Positions 1 through 7,573 of a stretch of DNA of 23,693 nt are shown in pieces. The stretch comes from a virus, in the IMG/VR virus record IMGVR_UViG_3300030450_002234, positions 1 through 23,693 of that record; one strand, given 5' to 3'. The notes below the pieces were generated by a model. That model did no database searches, was not told the origin of the DNA, and saw only the letters and a program-made list of their open reading frames with translations. Position numbers and translations under genes: made by a program. Each line of letters begins with the position of its first letter. The stretch's first letter is position 1.

Positions 1-716
1 TGTATGTTAGCACTTTTATTTGTTTCAGCCACATTAACGACAGTATTAGTCTTTATAATATCATTAACAGGCTCTGTATCTAAATAAGCATATTCAGGTC
101 TACCCTCTCTAAAACACTCTACAAAAGGAAGCATCCCATAGAAATTGGTGTGATCAGGATTATCTGCATCATCATAGATTTTACCATTTCTATCATAGAT
201 GAATGTATTCTCCATATCCCAATATGCAAATAGTTCAGGAGTAGTATCAAGTACCTCTGATTTAGTAGATAGAGGATATGTATAACCAATAGGTCGTAAT
301 GGGTCATCACCAAACATAGGCTCAAAATCATGGATAATATCATAGTCTAATAGACCATTCCTGAATGTTACCTTTACCAGACAACTATCAAGCAGGTTAG
401 TGAACCTTTCTAATCGCTGCATCTTAAAATCTTTCTCAACAAAGTAATCCATAATATCAGGCTTTGTATATTCTCTATTAGGTGCAACCATATATACAAG
501 TGATATTCTATCTATAATTCTCTTGGTTATATTCACATTAGCAATAGGCACTTTATTGGATAACTCTCTTGAAAAATACTTCTGTGTGTATCTCTCTGTT
601 CTTCCATTGTAATAATCCATAGCCATTTCACGTCTATCTCTCCACTTATTCTTGGCTTGTTGTTGTGCGTTCCATTGTGATTGCTTATCTACTAACTCTT
701 GTATTTTAGGTATCAT
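1..716 (-). CDS. Portal protein, SPP1 gp6-like (3' end cut by window)
   Basis: I translated this from 716 downward; it stays open to the window edge, giving 238 codons of the N-terminal part. It starts with an ATG that overlaps the TGA of the large terminase (ATGA), preceded by GGAG. The protein opens with a charged helix (MIPKIQELVDKQSQW), then a segment with MAMDYYNGRTERYT and a stretch VNITKRIIDRISLVYM. This is the usual layout of SPP1-type portals: an early YY(N/K)G segment, then a helix that begins the clip/stem. The portal is the dodecameric ring at the capsid vertex through which DNA is packaged. Its place directly after the terminase pair supports the call. The C-terminal crown and tunnel-loop regions lie beyond the window. 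The family assignment is by pattern only, but context makes it quite secure. Confidence 0.85.
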   Translation of the reverse strand, partial: MIPKIQELVDKQSQWNAQQQAKNKWRDRREMAMDYYNGRTERYTQKYFSRELSNKVPIANVNITKRIIDRISLVYMVAPNREYTKPDIMDYFVEKDFKMQRLERFTNLLDSCLVKVTFRNGLLDYDIIHDFEPMFGDDPLRPIGYTYPLSTKSEVLDTTPELFAYWDMENTFIYDRNGKIYDDADNPDHTNFYGMLPFVECFREGRPEYAYLDTEPVNDIIKTNTVVNVAETNKSANI

Positions 717-1969
717 CTATCTACACTCCATAATTTAGGTTTCTTAACAGGATATAGCCATTCTACTGAATAGCCTAGTGCATCTGTCAAATGCGTTAAT
801 GTTTTATTGCTCTTATCAATTTCTCTTGTGTTTGGTTTGTTTGTTACTCTTTCTAAATCATTAATTAAATCTGTGCATGATGGATCTACAATCATATTAT
901 CCTGTAATGCCCTGTTCATAGCATTCACTCTATTGACCACCAATGGATTGATATGTTTAACTCTTACCTTAAAATGTCTGCGTAATATATCTATATCACT
1001 ATATCTTGCAGAACTATGCTTTGCTCTACCTGTTGCATCAGGATATGAGTAATAAACATTGCTTGGATATTCTTCTTTTATTTGCTGACACAATCTTTCT
1101 GTGAGTAAATCACCCTCCCCTGCGTGGGAAAGTGAGTAGGTTTTGAATACCCTGATATTTGGCTTCTCGTGGTATTCTTGGAACAATACTGCACATAATG
1201 GATCGGTATTAAAGTCCTGACCAATGTGTATGGGTTTTCTAGGATTATATTTGACTTCTTTGACATTTTTCTCCCTGTTGAATGAATGATAAGTGGATAA
1301 TGCAGATAGATTGACAAACTCACCATCTCTATATGCCTTTAATAAGTTCTCATCATAGTTTGATTCTAATAGTTTAACATAGGCTTCTGGAAGATATGTA
1401 TTATCAGTTGTTTTACCCCTAACCAATAACCTATCATCATTATCATCTGTAACAAATATCTTATGCGTATAATGGAATCCCTCTGGTGATGTTACAATAT
1501 ATATCTCACAATTATCAGATCCACGCATTCTACCAATAGCCTTTTTAAACGCCATATCGCAGTTCTTCCAACTCTCTACATCAAACTCATCAAAGCCTAT
1601 GAATGTAAGTTCTGCACCAATAATACGCTGTGGTTTCTGTAACTGATAAATCTTAATATTTCCTGCTGCTGTTCTGAATCTGTGTTTAGATTGATTGTAC
1701 TCATAAGGACAATTCATATTATCTAATAATTCTTTAAATGGCTGTACAAATAACTCCTCTGCAAGATCATAAGTCGGATATATAACCCAACCATTAGATA
1801 ATCCCTGATGATTCGTTCTCTTAAACATATTCAGGAGTGTTTTGCGTATAAAGATATGCGTTTTACCTGCACCATATCCTGCTACTAAACCATTGATTGT
1901 TTTATCAGATGTTAAGAAATCCCATTGGTGTGGGAAATAATCTTCTTTATTGAATCGCAGTTTATACAT
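713..1969 (-). CDS. terL: Terminase large subunit (packaging ATPase/nuclease)
   Basis: This 418-aa protein has the two-domain layout of phage large terminases. The ATPase half shows a Walker A loop GYGAGKT at residues 31-37, a Walker B segment FIGFDEFD at 123-130 with the expected aspartate-glutamate, and a coupling-type TSPEG at 160-164. The nuclease half shows IHIGQDFNTDPL with D252, PDATGR with D311, and a late aspartate in HLTDALGY (D396). These fit the RNase H-like metal-binding acids. It would pump DNA into the prohead through the portal and cut the concatemer. It overlaps the small subunit by 8 bases upstream and the portal by 4 bases downstream, so the three are probably translationally coupled. 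Length is normal for the family. Confidence 0.95.
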   Translation of the reverse strand: MYKLRFNKEDYFPHQWDFLTSDKTINGLVAGYGAGKTHIFIRKTLLNMFKRTNHQGLSNGWVIYPTYDLAEELFVQPFKELLDNMNCPYEYNQSKHRFRTAAGNIKIYQLQKPQRIIGAELTFIGFDEFDVESWKNCDMAFKKAIGRMRGSDNCEIYIVTSPEGFHYTHKIFVTDDNDDRLLVRGKTTDNTYLPEAYVKLLESNYDENLLKAYRDGEFVNLSALSTYHSFNREKNVKEVKYNPRKPIHIGQDFNTDPLCAVLFQEYHEKPNIRVFKTYSLSHAGEGDLLTERLCQQIKEEYPSNVYYSYPDATGRAKHSSARYSDIDILRRHFKVRVKHINPLVVNRVNAMNRALQDNMIVDPSCTDLINDLERVTNKPNTREIDKSNKTLTHLTDALGYSVEWLYPVKKPKLWSVDR

Positions 1970-2273
1970 CTATGAACTCAACACCATCAACAGGATTCTC
2001 CCATTTAACTTCTGACTTCTCAACCTGACCTAATACCTGTTTGCCTAACCATATAAGCATAGTAACATTGCCCTTATCTGCTGCTTTCCATTGCATCTGT
2101 CTTAATCTAATTTTTCCTTTATCCCTACCTTTTGTCAGATTTTCGGAATAACTCTTTCTGATAAGGTCTGTGCTACAACCAAAGAATGATGCAATTTCAG
2201 TATCAGTACAACCGAATGATGCTAACTGCTCAACCTTATCTTTATCTATATCATATTTCTTTGGTCTTGCCAT
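1962..2273 (-). CDS. terS: Terminase small subunit (DNA-binding)
   Basis: This 103-aa protein begins MARPKKYDIDKDKVEQLASFGCTD-. It has a clear helix-turn-helix at about residues 12-42, with TDTEIASFFGCSTDLIRKSY as turn and recognition helix, followed by a helical region rich in K/R and Q (oligomerisation arm). This matches the small, HTH-containing terminase subunits that recognise the packaging site and load the large subunit. The ATG overlaps the TAA of the dioxygenase gene upstream (TAATG), and AAAGGA precedes it. Overlap with terL supports a packaging complex. The recognition site itself cannot be seen from the protein. Confidence 0.85.
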   Translation of the reverse strand: MARPKKYDIDKDKVEQLASFGCTDTEIASFFGCSTDLIRKSYSENLTKGRDKGKIRLRQMQWKAADKGNVTMLIWLGKQVLGQVEKSEVKWENPVDGVEFIDV

Positions 2274-3037
2274 TATTTATCAAATCCTTTCAATGGATAG
2301 AATATCAGGCTATTTCTATAACCACCCTCTGAATGTGGAATGATAGGCGAAACTCCATGAACATTTTTCCAAGCAGGATAACATATCATAGAATTGTCAG
2401 CACATTCAATAGTAAGCCCATAATCTGGAACATCTAAATAACCACCTTCTGAATCAAATCTTTTAGAAAATATAACATTTACTGTATCTTTTAAGTTACC
2501 TGTATCTCTATGATAATTAGCAGATATATTATAATTAGATATTGAACTTGTGAATAGGTCGCTAAACTTCCATTTTTTTGCTGTATTTTCATTCATTACT
2601 TGTTTCTGTTTTTTATATATTTTAGGTAAATGTTTTTTAATTAATGTTTCTGATTCTCTACAAAGAAGCATCATTGCTTTTATAAAGTTTTTTGCTTTTT
2701 TCTTTTGATGAACTGATGATATGCTTGGATAAGGTCGCCTGTTTTGTGGTCTTGGTAATACCGATCCTAATATTGTAGAAAATTGTTTAACCCCATTTCC
2801 CTCTTTTTGTCCAGAAGTTCTGCCCATAACAGATTTAGGAACATTATCACTTCTAAATTCTTTATTTGATATTTCAAGAAGTTGTTTCATCTTACCATTA
2901 ATGCTTTTGATATAAAATCCAACAGGCTCACCATCTATTGTAAATAAAGTATCTTCTGTAATGTTCGCAGTTTTATTGCAACATTTATCTCCTACTTTTA
3001 TATCGTGTTTAATATATTTCATTTCTAACTTATTCAT
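2273..3037 (-). CDS. 2-oxoglutarate/Fe(II) dioxygenase, TET/JBP-like candidate
   Basis: I start this at the ATG at 3037, giving 254 aa. It overlaps the TAA of the FkbM gene by a few bases; a longer frame upstream would run deep into that gene. The C-terminal half reads as a double-stranded beta-helix oxygenase: an HxD motif in NYHRDTGN (H176, D178), then GGYLDVPDYGLTIECADNS, the distal histidine in NVHGV (H227), and an arginine in YRNSLIFYP (R241) placed to bind 2-oxoglutarate. The order of these motifs resembles the TET/JBP group, which oxidises 5-methylpyrimidines in DNA, including phage members acting on 5-methylcytosine. The N-terminal ~150 residues are basic and helical and I do not recognise them. 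Two C5-cytosine methyltransferases lie within 5 kb, which would supply substrate. The oxygenase fold is well supported; the DNA-base substrate is inference, and a protein or small-molecule hydroxylase remains possible. Confidence 0.75.
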   Translation of the reverse strand: MNKLEMKYIKHDIKVGDKCCNKTANITEDTLFTIDGEPVGFYIKSINGKMKQLLEISNKEFRSDNVPKSVMGRTSGQKEGNGVKQFSTILGSVLPRPQNRRPYPSISSVHQKKKAKNFIKAMMLLCRESETLIKKHLPKIYKKQKQVMNENTAKKWKFSDLFTSSISNYNISANYHRDTGNLKDTVNVIFSKRFDSEGGYLDVPDYGLTIECADNSMICYPAWKNVHGVSPIIPHSEGGYRNSLIFYPLKGFDK

Positions 3038-3719
3038 AACAATATACATTATCTGCTTTTGGAAACACCCAATCTGGACATTCGTAATCTGGCAGTTTAT
3101 AAATTCCATTATTATATTTAATATTTTCGTAATGGCTTTTCATTTTATCAACAATATTCCTGTACCTTAACATTCTTTTATCAATATCTAAACTCCATTC
3201 AAATACCATCTTTTCAGGAAATACTTTCATATCTTCTAATATATCCATTTCAGCACCCTCTATATCCATCTTCACAAAAGAATCTTTTTTTATAACTTTT
3301 TCATAATGAATACAATCTACTGAAAATTTTTCATTACCCCAATCTTTATACAGGCTATTCCTCCAAGTTTGGTTATTATTTCCAACATACATTGTCATCT
3401 TTTTTTTATCATTTGCAACTACTGCTCTTTGAAATATGTTAGCATTAAAATTATTTACCTTTAAATTCTTTTCAATCATCTTACAACTGAATGGATCTGG
3501 CTCATAAATATCTACTGTCGCACCTTTTGATAAAGCAAGAACTGCAAAAGCACCTGCATTACCACCAAGATCAATCCAATGATCTCCCCTTTTAATTTTA
3601 AAATCTTTATTTCTTTCATATACATTTCTGACTATAACTTCTTCAAATGTTTTTTCATCAGAAGTTCCCTCTCTGACTAAAAATTTAATATCCTTATTAT
3701 TTTTTTGTTTTATAATCAT
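3030..3719 (-). CDS. FkbM-family SAM-dependent methyltransferase
   Basis: This 229-aa protein shows a Rossmann methyltransferase core. Motif I is DLGGNAGAFA from D50, the acidic end of strand 2 is YEPDP at 72-76, and MDIEGAE at 151-157 is the FkbM hallmark. FkbM enzymes typically O-methylate hydroxyl groups on sugars or natural products. Here it lies between a ParB-like gene and a TET/JBP-like oxygenase and overlaps both, so its substrate may be an oxidised DNA base or a sugar on it rather than a surface glycan. That is inference. A weak AGGG lies before the ATG. Lines I counted by hand in this gene are about 23-28% GC, lower than the terminase genes next door. No glycosyltransferase was seen nearby. 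Confidence 0.85.
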   Translation of the reverse strand: MIIKQKNNKDIKFLVREGTSDEKTFEEVIVRNVYERNKDFKIKRGDHWIDLGGNAGAFAVLALSKGATVDIYEPDPFSCKMIEKNLKVNNFNANIFQRAVVANDKKKMTMYVGNNNQTWRNSLYKDWGNEKFSVDCIHYEKVIKKDSFVKMDIEGAEMDILEDMKVFPEKMVFEWSLDIDKRMLRYRNIVDKMKSHYENIKYNNGIYKLPDYECPDWVFPKADNVYCYE

Positions 3720-4287
3720 TCAAAAACCCTAATATTAATCCACCAACATACTCACCATTTTTTCGTATTTCACCTACAAGTTTATAAGCCTGTTCATAAT
3801 CTTCCAATGTAAATTCTATTTGAATTGCTTTTCTTGTTCCATCAATCATACCATCAATTTCATCATCAAGGCTATCATCATCAAGTGCAGAATAATCCAT
3901 ATCAGTAAATCCTGCTAATTGATTTTCATCAAATCCCCAATCTTTTAATTCTTCCATTTCAAATAAATTTGCTAATATATCATAATCCCAACCACCTGTA
4001 TTCTTATTTAATCTTACATTTAATTCTTTTTCTTTATCATAAGTTAGGTCAATCTCAACGCAGGGAACTTCATCAATGCCCATTGTTCGTGCAACCTTAA
4101 CTCTTTGATGCCCACCAATGATGATGTCTTTTCTGTCTTTGTTTTTATTGATAATAATTGGATCTACTAAACCAAATCTGGATATGCTATCTTTGAGATG
4201 TTTGTATTGATCATCAGACAACTGTCTGGGATTATATTCTGCAAATATTAAGTCGTCTATTGGCTTCTGGATAATCTTTTTAAGCAT
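3697..4287 (-). CDS. ParB/Srx-fold (ParB N-terminal-like) protein
   Basis: This 196-aa protein carries a ParB N-terminal domain in its first ~100 residues: a YNPRQLS segment (N19-P20-R21), then DSISRFGLVDPIII, then a nucleotide-binding box IIGGHQRVKVARTMG with GGHQR at 58-62, and VPCVEIDL. The GGHQR box replaces the GERR of chromosomal ParB and is the form common in phage and mobile-element ParB-like proteins, often beside DNA methyltransferases. The C-terminal part is acidic and then ends with a helical region; no HTH is obvious. It is the first gene of the left block, has AAGGAG before the ATG, and overlaps the FkbM gene. A plasmid-style partition role is unlikely without a ParA gene. A role tied to DNA modification or packaging is inferred from context. 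Confidence 0.85.
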   Translation of the reverse strand: MLKKIIQKPIDDLIFAEYNPRQLSDDQYKHLKDSISRFGLVDPIIINKNKDRKDIIIGGHQRVKVARTMGIDEVPCVEIDLTYDKEKELNVRLNKNTGGWDYDILANLFEMEELKDWGFDENQLAGFTDMDYSALDDDSLDDEIDGMIDGTRKAIQIEFTLEDYEQAYKLVGEIRKNGEYVGGLILGFLNDYKTKK

Positions 4288-4309
4288 TTTGCTCCTTTTG
4301 GCTTGGATT

Positions 4310-4315
4310 ATTATA
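4310..4315 (-). promoter_or_regulatory. Candidate promoter -10 box for the ParB-terminase block
   Basis: The minus strand reads TTTAGTATAATAATCC, which contains a perfect TATAAT. It lies in the only noncoding gap (4288-4359) between the early block and the ParB-like gene. The ATG is about 20 bases downstream, with AAGGAG between. No good -35 is visible at 16-18 bases, so this is a candidate only. In such AT-rich DNA a chance match is possible. Confidence 0.4.
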
Positions 4316-4359
4316 CTAAATCAACTATATGAAAATAACCTTATTTATTTTTCAAGTAA

Positions 4360-4569
4360 TTAACAATTTCTTGTAACTATTCTCTCCACTAAATTAGGTG
4401 ATATAAAAAATTTCCTGCAAATAATTGTTCTTCTTTTTTTATAAGATAAATCTGTATATTTTAAACCTTCCCAGAATGAACGAATAATTGTGTTCCTGAT
4501 TTCAGTATGATTAACTAATTTATCTACATCATAGAATTGATTTGTGTTTATTTCAATTTTTAACTTCAT
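4360..4569 (-). CDS. Small HTH-like protein, function unknown
   Basis: This 69-aa protein starts at the ATG at 4569; an upstream in-frame TTG exists but lacks a better ribosome site. Its start lies inside the end of the RusA gene (17-base overlap). The second half, YKKRRTIICRKFFISPNLVE, followed by RIVTR, reads like a helix-turn-helix with a basic approach helix, similar in style to sigma-region-4 or small phage regulators. I do not recognise the family. Its position at the end of the early block, just before a candidate promoter, would suit a regulator of the following block, but nothing in the sequence proves DNA binding. Confidence 0.6.
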   Translation of the reverse strand: MKLKIEINTNQFYDVDKLVNHTEIRNTIIRSFWEGLKYTDLSYKKRRTIICRKFFISPNLVERIVTRNC

Positions 4570-4987
4570 CTTCTTCAATAATGACTATCTCTGTTCTAGG
4601 TTTATCTGAATAAAGTTTTTCTGCGTATATGGTATATACTTGATTGTCATCAAGGAAGAACCCATTATGACCACTTAAACTATCTAAAACATATTTTATA
4701 AGATTATCAATATCAGGCTTCTTGGTATGTGGGATCTTAATCCATTGGTCTTTAACTATACCCTCATATTTGCCTGTTCTATAATGGCTTTTTGGTCGCT
4801 TCATGTAGAATTTGATGCTTATATGGATTGCGTTTAATAATGGAAGATGATTAAAACTTTTGTTATAGTTATAATCTTTTAATGCTTTTGTTAGAAATTT
4901 TTCTTTATCTTTTTTGCAGGGGTCGTATGTTCCGAATTTGAAGTGTCGGTGTCTTTGTTGTGGAATTGGATTGCCTTGAATTTCCAA
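4553..4987 (-). CDS. rusA: RusA-like Holliday junction resolvase
   Basis: This is a RusA-type endodeoxyribonuclease of about 144-148 aa. Visible hallmarks are the N-terminal strand with GNPIPQQRHR, the central strand IHISIKFYMKRP, the catalytic segment KKPDIDNLIKYVLDSLSG (D92, D94 by this numbering), and FFLDDNQV with D113/D114. These fit the metal-binding aspartates of E. coli RusA. It resolves branched DNA before packaging and works with recombination proteins such as the ERF-like gene upstream. The coordinate given uses a TTG start, the only standard start codon in the open frame. The ribosome site AAGGAG is about 20 bases upstream of it, however, and sits instead 8 bases before an ATC at 4999 (see findings). 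The first strand of the fold would then be complete. The family call is firm; the start is not. Confidence 0.9.
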   Translation of the reverse strand: MEIQGNPIPQQRHRHFKFGTYDPCKKDKEKFLTKALKDYNYNKSFNHLPLLNAIHISIKFYMKRPKSHYRTGKYEGIVKDQWIKIPHTKKPDIDNLIKYVLDSLSGHNGFFLDDNQVYTIYAEKLYSDKPRTEIVIIEEDEVKN

Positions 4988-4998
4988 TACTATTTGGA

Positions 4999-5070
4999 TT
5001 ACTTTATCTCCTTACCGATTAAATAGCCTAAAATGAATGCTAAAACCCAACCAATAATATATACAATCAT
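4999..5070 (-). CDS. 23-aa single-pass membrane mini-protein
   Basis: I read an ATG at 5070 and a TAA at 4999-5001, giving MIVYIIGWVLAFILGYLIGK plus EIK. It is nearly all transmembrane helix with a small-residue face (GWVLAFILGYLIG) and a positively charged end. It lies between a two-helix membrane protein and rusA, and its last codons contain the AAGGAG that probably serves rusA. Its own ribosome site is weak. It may be a real membrane peptide or a leader that couples translation of rusA. Confidence 0.45.
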   Translation of the reverse strand: MIVYIIGWVLAFILGYLIGKEIK

Positions 5071-5088
5071 TATGCTTAAAATCAATTA

Positions 5089-5286
5089 TTAATCTATTCT
5101 CCCATTGAAGAAACTAAAAACCCAATTTGCAATATCTTTTATTAAAAACATTGCTGCGAATACTAATATTAATGAAAATACAAAGATAAATATATATCTT
5201 ATATTCTCAACAAGTAGTATAGTCAATGTCCCTGCTACCAAAAATACTAGAATTAATACTAATGCTCCTATCCATTTTAATATCAT
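5089..5286 (-). CDS. Two-helix small membrane protein
   Basis: This 65-aa protein has two predicted membrane helices: about residues 5-26 (GALVLILVFLVAGTLTILLV) and about 30-50 (YIFIFVFSLILVFAAMFLI). It ends in a short soluble tail with NWVFSFFNGRID. Its ATG overlaps the TGA of the second cytosine methyltransferase (ATGA), with GGGAT upstream. Size and topology would suit a holin or an inner-membrane host-takeover peptide. No lysis enzyme lies next to it, so I do not assign a function. Confidence 0.65.
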   Translation of the reverse strand: MILKWIGALVLILVFLVAGTLTILLVENIRYIFIFVFSLILVFAAMFLIKDIANWVFSFFNGRID

Positions 5287-5894
5287 TTTATCCCTTTCAA
5301 TATTTCTTCACATAATTCTCTTGGAACTTTACTCTTTTCATAAGCATTTTTCATTCCCTGTGTTCCTGATCGAGAACCTCTTGGTGCTATTTCATGATGA
5401 CAATTTCTGTTTCCATTATGACACATTTGTCTTGGAATCCAACACATATCATTTGTCCATATATCTGTGGGTTTCATTCTGTTATCTCCATATTTACAAT
5501 AACATACTGTATTTCTAATTGGTACAGATTGAATTACAGATAATTTTCTTAATTTACCTCTTGGATTTTCAATATAATATTTTGGATTCAATTCATTTAT
5601 TATATCTAATGTTTTTTGCACAATTTTAACACCATGTACTGCTTGAAATGTTTTTGGTGTATGGTCTTTATTCCAATGATGTCCTATTGATGAAACACTA
5701 AAATATGTACAAGGTGGTGATGCCCAAATAATATCAGGCTTAAATGGAATCTTACTTATATCAAAGTCGAATATATCACAGACTTGGTCAATTTTATCAA
5801 ATGCTTTAAAATCACTTGTATATGTTTCATATCCCAATTCTTCTGCAACCTTTGAGAATGACCTGGATCCTGCAAATAATTCTAATACTTTCAT
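5283..5894 (-). CDS. Small C5-cytosine DNA methyltransferase (copy 2)
   Basis: This 203-aa protein carries the core of C5-cytosine methyltransferases. Motif I is LELFAGSRSFSKVAEELGY at residues 4-22, the catalytic Cys motif is ASPPCTYFS with C62, and the ENP triplet (Motif VI type) is at 109-111 in YYIENPRGK. CYCKYGDNRMKPTDIWTN follows, as in small phage Dcm-like enzymes. The C-terminal region is Cys/His-containing (MCHNGNRNCHHE) and could hold a metal. It is about 200 residues, shorter than full Dcm or M.HhaI enzymes, so the target-recognition region is minimal. It overlaps a zinc-ribbon gene upstream and a membrane gene downstream. It would methylate cytosine in phage DNA, evading host restriction or providing 5mC for the dioxygenase at 2273-3037. 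The sequence specificity cannot be read. Confidence 0.85.
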   Translation of the reverse strand: MKVLELFAGSRSFSKVAEELGYETYTSDFKAFDKIDQVCDIFDFDISKIPFKPDIIWASPPCTYFSVSSIGHHWNKDHTPKTFQAVHGVKIVQKTLDIINELNPKYYIENPRGKLRKLSVIQSVPIRNTVCYCKYGDNRMKPTDIWTNDMCWIPRQMCHNGNRNCHHEIAPRGSRSGTQGMKNAYEKSKVPRELCEEILKGIK

Positions 5895-6073
5895 AAATCT
5901 CCATACATTTCTTCATTATAATCTTCAAATAGAAACTCACCAAGCATTTCTAATACAACAAATTCACAATATGGATTGCTGCACTCCAACCCCTCCTCTA
6001 CATCATCTTCTGATACTAAAAACTCTGCTACTTTTAATGGTGATACACATTTAGGACAATTTGGTATATTCAT
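5891..6073 (-). CDS. Zinc-ribbon mini-protein
   Basis: This 60-aa protein has two cysteine pairs, CPKC at residues 6-9 and CSNPYC at 31-36. This is a treble-clef or ribbon spacing for one zinc ion. The C-terminal third is strongly acidic (EFLFEDYNEEMYGDL). ATGA overlaps link it to the membrane protein upstream and to the methyltransferase downstream. I do not know its function. Acidic zinc ribbons in phages often bind host proteins such as RNA polymerase, but that is only a possibility. Confidence 0.65.
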   Translation of the reverse strand: MNIPNCPKCVSPLKVAEFLVSEDDVEEGLECSNPYCEFVVLEMLGEFLFEDYNEEMYGDL

Positions 6074-6231
6074 TTCATACTCCTGTGAAATTCAATATAT
6101 TCTTTCATAATCATATTCTTCAATCTTAATTTAGGTACTAATACCCATAACAATGTTACAATACCCACTTTTACTATAATTGACATTACTTCATTTAGAA
6201 AATAAAGTAAATCTATTAATCCATCTGTCAT
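6070..6231 (-). CDS. 53-aa single-pass membrane protein
   Basis: I translated this by hand from the ATG at 6231. It has an exact GGAGAAACAAATG initiation region that overlaps the stop of the gene upstream. It reads MTDGLIDLLYFLNEVMSIIV and continues with a hydrophobic helix KVGIVTLLWVLVP, then a basic tail KLRLKNMIMKEYIEF. It is a small protein with one membrane helix and an N-out or N-in orientation I cannot fix; positive residues after the helix suggest a cytoplasmic C-terminus. The stop forms an ATGA overlap with the zinc-ribbon gene. Function unknown. Confidence 0.6.
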   Translation of the reverse strand: MTDGLIDLLYFLNEVMSIIVKVGIVTLLWVLVPKLRLKNMIMKEYIEFHRSMK

Positions 6232-6240
6232 TTGTTTCTC

Positions 6241-6423
6241 CTATTTTATGTATTTATCCACTAATTTTTTGCCTATGTATAATACTGCAATAACACCTAC
6301 TATTGATATAATATCTATAAAATGATTTCCTGAATCTGATTCTAATTTTCCTATTGGCGTTTCAATAGATACTTTTTTTGATTGTAATGTTGTGTCTAAT
6401 GTATTAATTGGTTTTGGTTTCAT
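6241..6423 (-). CDS. 60-aa protein with C-terminal membrane helix
   Basis: The N-terminal 35 residues are polar (MKPKPINTLDTTLQSKKVSI), followed by a membrane helix IDIISIVGVIAVLYIGKKL and a lysine-rich end. AAGGAG precedes the ATG, which overlaps the end of the methyltransferase gene (TAA/ATG). The first codons and initiation region repeat those of that methyltransferase (ATGAAACCAAA), which may reflect local duplication. It may be a tail-anchored inner-membrane protein. Function unknown. Confidence 0.65.
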   Translation of the reverse strand: MKPKPINTLDTTLQSKKVSIETPIGKLESDSGNHFIDIISIVGVIAVLYIGKKLVDKYIK

Positions 6424-7019
6424 TTGTTCTCCTTAAAAAATGCTTTTGCAAATCCCTGTGGTGTCATTGACCTTCTCTCTAATCTTGTATATTTACCATA
6501 GTATTCAGGGTGTATTTCTTTACTTTTCATTCTGTCAAATTTAGGCATATCACATTCTATTGGGTTTTTTGTAGGAAAATTAAACCAACCCCATAGACAA
6601 GTTAATTTTTTATAATTATCACCAAAATCATAGGGATTAAATTCATAACAAGGTTTACCCAAAAATCTTTTGAGCAATCCTTTTGGATTCTCTAATGCCC
6701 AAAATTTCAAAGAAGTAGTTTTGGCATAAGGACTAATTAATTCATATTGTGCTTCTGCTATTATTCTCAAACAATGATTAACTATCTCATACGCACTTTT
6801 TAGATCTCTTGGTTTCCCTGTTGTTTTAGCAAAACTAAATTGATCACAAGGTGGTGCTGCCAAGATACCATAAACATTTTTAGGGGGAGTGTAATCTCTA
6901 ACATCATTTTCAGGTAGCGTAATCAATCTAACATCATACCCTGCTTCTTTATATGGCTTACTCCAAGACCCTGTACCACCACATAAATCTAATATAATCT
7001 TATCTTTGTTTGGTTTCAT
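6420..7019 (-). CDS. Small C5-cytosine DNA methyltransferase (copy 1)
   Basis: This 199-aa protein has Motif I IILDLCGGTGSWS (D11 onward), the catalytic PPC loop AAPPCDQFSFA with C58, and WALENPKGLL with ENP at 110-112. NPYDFGDNYKKLTCLWGWF follows, the FGD..KKTCLW signature of phage Dcm-type cytosine methylases. Like its neighbour at 5283-5894 it is about 200 aa and lacks an evident large recognition domain. The two share only the core motifs, so they are distant relatives, perhaps with different target sites. Its ATG overlaps the TGA of the nuclease-like gene upstream. It adds a methyl group to cytosine C5 in DNA. Possible roles are restriction evasion or making 5mC for further oxidation. 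Confidence 0.85.
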   Translation of the reverse strand: MKPNKDKIILDLCGGTGSWSKPYKEAGYDVRLITLPENDVRDYTPPKNVYGILAAPPCDQFSFAKTTGKPRDLKSAYEIVNHCLRIIAEAQYELISPYAKTTSLKFWALENPKGLLKRFLGKPCYEFNPYDFGDNYKKLTCLWGWFNFPTKNPIECDMPKFDRMKSKEIHPEYYGKYTRLERRSMTPQGFAKAFFKENK

Positions 7020-7573
7020 TTGTTATCCCATCTGCTTATCATCTGCATTTTCATATCTACTACACTATTAACAAAATTTAAATATTGATTATCTATTTCA
7101 TACCAATCTGCATCTAATGGTTCACCTTTACCCTTGCCTTGCTGCATAATCATACCTTTTGGATTTAATTTTCTATGTTTTATCGCATCTTCTTTTTTAA
7201 TCCAACCACAAACTGTTAATTCTTTTTTATTGGTATTTATACTACAAAATATATATCCATCAACATCATAATCCATCTGGGATTTTAATAGATTGTTAGT
7301 ATAATAATCTTTGACATCAGTTGTTCTTGACATTGTTTTGACATCATATCTTTTACCATTATGTTTTAAATCAACACCACCATCACAACCTGAACTACCA
7401 TCAATATACTTTAATCCAAACATATCCTTAATTACACATTCACCCATAATACCAATATATTGTTGGCTTTTATTTCCATTGTCTTTGGATCTATTCCCAA
7501 AATTATGATTATCAATTTGCTTTTTACAATGTGCTATTATCTCTGGTTTAATTTTAACATTTAATCTTTTCAT
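7016..7573 (-). CDS. PD-(D/E)XK nuclease-like protein
   Basis: This 185-aa protein carries a restriction-endonuclease-like core: YIGIMGECVIKDMFG with E45, then CDGGVDLKHNGKRYDVKTM with D68 and the D-V-K triad (D77, K79). CSINTNKKELTVCGWIKKEDA gives the following strand and helix. The spacing D-x8-DxK is normal for the superfamily. In many phages proteins of this kind act as small endonucleases or as exonucleases in recombination. It lies between the replication gene and a cytosine methyltransferase and overlaps the latter. A restriction-modification pair is possible but not indicated by more than adjacency. A ribosome site AAAGGAT precedes the ATG. Confidence 0.7.
   Translation of the reverse strand: MKRLNVKIKPEIIAHCKKQIDNHNFGNRSKDNGNKSQQYIGIMGECVIKDMFGLKYIDGSSGCDGGVDLKHNGKRYDVKTMSRTTDVKDYYTNNLLKSQMDYDVDGYIFCSINTNKKELTVCGWIKKEDAIKHRKLNPKGMIMQQGKGKGEPLDADWYEIDNQYLNFVNSVVDMKMQMISRWDNK

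Follow-up and report, generated by a model that had tools for sequence, protein, structure and literature searches.

The locus examined here raises the question of what a phage would make with a TET/JBP-like oxygenase encoded next to an FkbM-family methyltransferase, and on which base of its DNA. It lies in a window of 23,693 nucleotides from the 30,701-base IMG/VR virus record IMGVR_UViG_3300030450_002234, whose two ends share a 146-base overlap (92% identity) inside the portal gene, so that the phage genome (~30.6 kb) is effectively complete. In a preliminary description of the window, two C5-cytosine methyltransferases (C5-MTs) were thought to supply 5-methylcytosine (5mC) to the oxygenase, with FkbM acting last and a ParB-like protein nearby. 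All five open reading frames (ORFs) are present on one strand, the minus strand, and the identities given to the oxygenase, FkbM, and ParB are borne out; the supply of substrate by the C5-MTs is not. We hypothesize that ParB, FkbM, the oxygenase (TET), and the small and large terminase subunits (TerS and TerL) probably constitute a late, packaging-coupled DNA hypermodification cassette making a methoxymethyl pyrimidine, with thymine as the more likely base. The five genes form a head-to-tail chain of overlaps, with the FkbM gene overlapping both the ParB gene and the oxygenase gene:

3697-4287, minus strand: ParB_N-domain protein, constant upstream partner of the oxygenase (PF02195, 1.5e-9, above cut-off)
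3030-3719, minus strand: FkbM-family S-adenosylmethionine (SAM) methyltransferase, candidate O-methylation (capping) enzyme (PF05050, 1.9e-8; phrog_28597, 1.7e-43)
2273-3037, minus strand: TET/JBP 2-oxoglutarate/Fe(II) oxygenase (Tet_JBP, 4.2e-8; PDB profile match to TET2; structure model)
1962-2273, minus strand: TerS, overlapping the oxygenase stop (phrog_309, 3.7e-9)
713-1969, minus strand: TerL (Terminase_3, 2.7e-6; phrog_2, 3.3e-37)

In the proposed pathway, the TET/JBP enzyme would act on a pyrimidine after its incorporation into DNA, hydroxylating its 5-methyl group, and FkbM would use SAM to methylate the resulting hydroxyl, so that a methoxymethyl pyrimidine is formed; with thymine as the base, this would be 5-methoxymethyluracil in DNA. 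The methyl cap would stand where sister phages attach a sugar (through the TET-associated glycosyltransferase, TAGT) or an amino acid (through a kinase and an amino-acid:DNA transferase, ADDT). Because the oxygenase block overlaps the terminase genes, we infer that the modification is timed just before packaging, and the modified base presumably shields phage DNA from host nucleases. Put in its most specific form the hypothesis becomes tentative: widespread aquatic phages may oxidize thymine in finished DNA before packaging and cap it as a methyl ether, yielding 5-methoxymethyl-deoxyuridine, with relatives using that gene position for a sugar or an amino acid in place of the methyl cap.

The oxygenase matches the Pfam family Tet_JBP (PF12851) with an E-value of 4.2e-8 and 33.0 bits, the gathering score being slightly higher (34.9), and in a PDB search with a profile built from 45 relatives TET2 was the top match (6e-4). 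By way of its AlphaFold model (predicted local distance difference test, pLDDT, 93.4), the double-stranded beta-helix fold is closest to TET/NgTET among solved structures, with matches to TET2 (Z 19.1), NgTET1 (18.7), CcTet (17.1), CMD1 (16.5), and FTO (14.9); prolyl hydroxylase, which the preliminary description had named as one identity that would speak against its proposal, is absent among the structural matches listed. The metal triad (H176 and D178 of the HxD motif, and H227) and the 2-oxoglutarate-binding R241 are kept in 206–207 of 207 aligned oxygenase sequences. Sequence and model agree that this is a genuine TET/JBP enzyme, for which oxidation of a DNA 5-methylpyrimidine is predicted. 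Annotations such as the RefSeq label "queuine tRNA-ribosyltransferase," and likewise the name given to phrog_6059, were set aside as wrong; the proteins are Tet_JBP. This mislabel is widespread for TET/JBP oxygenases, occurring in NC_020847.1, NC_028742.1, other RefSeq phages, and phrog_6059.

The order ParB–decorating enzyme–TET–TerS–TerL is common to the Prochlorococcus phages MED4-184, MED4-117, and P-HS2, and recurs in more than 100 viral contigs, reached from the oxygenase as well as from FkbM, with ParB in every related locus that is free of upstream truncation. What changes is a slot near TET, which in most cases lies between it and ParB. In counts that include many fragmentary records, stem in part from searches anchored on FkbM or TAGT, and therefore do not give natural frequencies, Pfam and local profiles assign to this slot FkbM (89), TAGT (86), ADDT-type clusters in which the transferase is accompanied by a kinase and an amidotransferase (8 loci), or a 275-aa protein without family (4 loci), and the slot is empty in 14 loci. 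Oxygenases with different slot enzymes (FkbM- versus TAGT-bearing) are up to 90% identical, and that of the window is 89% identical to its counterpart in locus L007, where FkbM is missing. In a quick tree of 96 oxygenases, which has many weak branches, a long-branch warning for the window, and weak resolution around it, at least 12 changes of the FkbM label fall on starred branches.

Two observations concern other states of the slot. The 275-aa protein (L040:450-1274, L042, L043, and L045), located between ParB and TET and without a Pfam match, is a candidate new base-decorating enzyme, as is a 337-aa protein in L071. In addition, among L046, L052, L058-L060, and L212-L288 there are many phages in which TET is paired with TAGT and no C5-MT is recognized, so that their product may be a glycosylated 5-hydroxymethyluracil (5hmU) resembling base J.

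A second, distant TET subfamily, typified by the cultured Pelagibacter phage HTVC112P, shows the order ParB–TET–FkbM. FkbM stands beside TET in 33 of its 82 loci, and others carry TAGT, a P-loop kinase, amidotransferases (GATase), or another methyltransferase instead. The FkbM proteins of the block and of this subfamily are homologous but merely 28% identical, and the FkbM–TET pairing in the HTVC112P-type subfamily is independent of that in the block. At the usual place of FkbM after an HTVC112P-type TET, L415 (1611-2201) and L427 have a different SAM methyltransferase of approximately 200 aa, of Methyltransf_25 type as tested with Pfam in L415 alone.

Which pyrimidine would be modified is a separate question, on which two further genes of the window bear. 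They sit 1–3 kb upstream of the overlapping block, with RusA and small ORFs between:

5283-5894, minus strand: short C5-MT-like protein 1, 203 aa (PF00145, 1.4e-5; phrog_757, 4.9e-32)
6420-7019, minus strand: short C5-MT-like protein 2, 199 aa (phrog_757 "DNA methyltransferase," 8.6e-32)

Their description as C5 methyltransferases stands in part, since both keep the PPC and ENP motifs and match phrog_757, but at approximately 200 aa they are too short for a target-recognition domain. The first aligns to profile positions 4–110 of 324 in PF00145, the second has no Pfam C5-MT match, and a PDB sequence search with the short proteins returned nothing useful. C5 activity on DNA is plausible from their motifs; in gene order, both lie outside the conserved block. 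A 185-aa protein at 7016-7573, without a Pfam match, directly adjoins C5-MT-like protein 2, and its GVD...DVK pattern resembles PD-(D/E)XK nucleases; judged by this pattern, the two genes could form a nuclease–methyltransferase pair.

As an alternative to thymine, the two C5-MTs might generate 5mC, which TET would convert to 5-hydroxymethylcytosine (5hmC) and FkbM would cap to give 5-methoxymethylcytosine. Both short genes do share genome and strand with the oxygenase, and the phage TETs characterized so far are described as modifying cytosine together with glycosyltransferases and a C5-MT of the phage (PMC12730594). However, a C5-MT (PF00145 or phrog_757) was found in only 5 of the 50 block records, one of them the window, and is thus missing from 45; the same search, applied like the former to many fragmentary records, found one in 4 of 26 TAGT-anchored virus records and in 0 of 34 HTVC112P-type records, against 16 of 16 Melnitz-type records. 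This Melnitz-type subfamily of marine TETs (L291, the Melnitz phage itself, and L299-L369) is a clean cytosine-type control: in 64 of 71 loci an HhaI-like C5-MT immediately precedes TET, and a local profile detected a C5-MT in 66, the remaining five being truncated at the oxygenase. No C5-MT was found in the complete genomes of MED4-184, Tonitrus, Baee, Margaery, Prairie, Ottawa, and HTVC112P. The idea that conserved C5-MTs were hidden by a weak model was rejected: the two models PF00145 and phrog_757 find them mostly absent, as do a hidden Markov model derived from Melnitz and a scan for motifs in 28 large records. The co-occurrence of oxygenase and methyltransferases expected in the preliminary description is therefore nearly lacking in relatives, close to the outcome it had set against itself. 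Furthermore, the window methyltransferases are not adjacent to the oxygenase, and the position eight residues after the 2-oxoglutarate-binding Arg (R+8), a base-side His in TET2, is Leu in 205 of 207 oxygenases. Taken together, we consider the cytosine route unlikely.

Thymine, by contrast, is a 5-methylpyrimidine available without a further enzyme, and it is the favored base. No thymidylate-synthase-type hydroxymethylase (PF00303) was detected in the 50 block records, which leaves the oxygenase as the sole recognized source of the hydroxymethyl group. Thymidine hypermodification that passes through 5-hydroxymethyldeoxyuridine (5hmdU; PMC6449724) involves enzymes similar to the ADDT, kinase, and amidotransferase found with these oxygenases. 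Among the base-side positions of the window oxygenase (N181, Y247, and L249), N181 differs from 5mC enzymes, and L249 corresponds to a His in TET2 and an Asp in Melnitz, differences which are suggestive and seem to point away from cytosine. Single residues nevertheless do not settle base specificity, since in HTVC112P-type enzymes, which likewise have no C5-MT, Asp and Arg occupy these two positions. We infer from gene content that the base is more likely thymine than 5mC.

Several points weigh against a methyl-capped thymine. The window phage itself encodes two C5-MT-like proteins, so that 5mC could arise here and lead to a cytosine product, and in its relatives the host could be an alternative source of 5mC. 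TAGT acts on bases derived from 5hmC as well, as in phage T6 (PMC13216743), and the slot partners alone therefore do not fix the base. Moreover, the fold match of FkbM is to a generic Rossmann methyltransferase, with the FkbM structure 2py6 at rank 44 (Z 11.9).

The FkbM assignment itself is clear from PF05050 (E 1.9e-8, 35.0 bits, cut-off 22.7); the protein has the motif WIDLGGNAGAF and conserved KMDIEGAE and EWSxDID, and its model has a pLDDT of 91. It might be argued, given the generic fold and the close relative L007 without it, that this enzyme has nothing to do with DNA, methylating capsid, host surface, or metabolites as a mere passenger between ParB and TET. This is improbable, since among 65 strong FkbM homologs in viral contigs the oxygenase adjoins 63, the other two contigs ending inside or at FkbM, while known base-decorating enzymes replace it in the slot and a second TET subfamily has paired with FkbM independently. 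Less probable still is methylation of a sugar placed on the hydroxymethyl base by another enzyme, since, although numerous FkbM-family enzymes methylate sugar or polyketide hydroxyls, FkbM and TAGT share one slot and are mutually exclusive, with no locus holding both and no TAGT (PF20691) in the complete window record or in any FkbM-type record tested, a search of the TAGT family that leaves other glycosyltransferase families conceivable. In agreement with the preliminary description, no glycosyltransferase was recognized among the larger ORFs scanned in the window genome. Direct capping of the hydroxymethyl group is the simplest reading, because sister enzymes at the same place glycosylate or aminoacylate it, and FkbM most likely acts on the TET product in this way rather than methylating a sugar. 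An FkbM-based end product, as first supposed, gains from the conserved partnership with TET, while the sugar version of that idea is disfavored.

Phage TET, C5-MT, and glycosyltransferase enzymes reportedly carry out cytosine hypermodification together (Burke et al. 2021, PNAS, doi 10.1073/pnas.2026742118). In this system, as told in PMC12730594, a methyl-pyrimidine is likewise oxidized by a TET/JBP enzyme once DNA has been replicated, and another phage enzyme then decorates the product; here, the C5-MT is outside the block and decoration would fall to a methyltransferase. The C5-MT linkage of such 5mC-TET systems is rare among the block relatives and missing from the complete MED4-184, and no glycosyltransferase was recognized in the window record by the TAGT search or among the larger ORFs scanned. 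Methylophilales phage Melnitz shares the phage-encoded Tet_JBP domain, yet its TET is directly downstream of a full-length HhaI-like C5-MT, is without a ParB partner, and has Asp at both positions where block oxygenases have Asn and Leu.

In the base J pathway of kinetoplastids, the TET/JBP enzymes JBP1 and JBP2 make 5hmU from DNA thymine, and the hydroxyl is then capped with glucose. Compared by general description, the block would be alike if thymine is the substrate, but its cap would be methyl instead of glucose, and it has no JBP DNA-binding domain and a phage setting. Such a route would involve neither a C5-MT nor a nucleotide hydroxymethylase, and both gene types are absent in most relatives, whereas the window has two C5-MT-like genes. 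Phages M6, ViI, and phi W-14 hypermodify thymidine by a 5hmdU kinase and alkylamine transferases, with 5hmdU made as a nucleotide before replication (PMC6449724). Similar ADDT, kinase, and amidotransferase genes occupy the slot of sister phages; the systems differ, since a search for a hydroxymethylase came back empty here, with the oxygenase left as the sole recognized source.

No methyl-capped hydroxymethyl base in DNA was described in the literature searched, the founding phage TET papers being beyond its reach. If our hypothesis is correct, the known range of end products in phage DNA hypermodification would grow by a methyl ether, interchangeable decorating enzymes would be accommodated by one constant ParB–TET–terminase chassis, and a large phage TET group would be suggested to act on thymine, like JBP, rather than on 5mC; new enzymes with which modified bases could be written or protected would also follow. 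Because the chassis is present in the cultured Prochlorococcus phage MED4-184, and the TET–FkbM pair in the cultured Pelagibacter phage HTVC112P, these ideas are directly testable.

A scan of the genome contigs gave four bins only, too few for host assignment. In L005:289-1101 (contig about 23,288-24,100), a run of N appears as four ambiguous residues inside a structural gene of the record.

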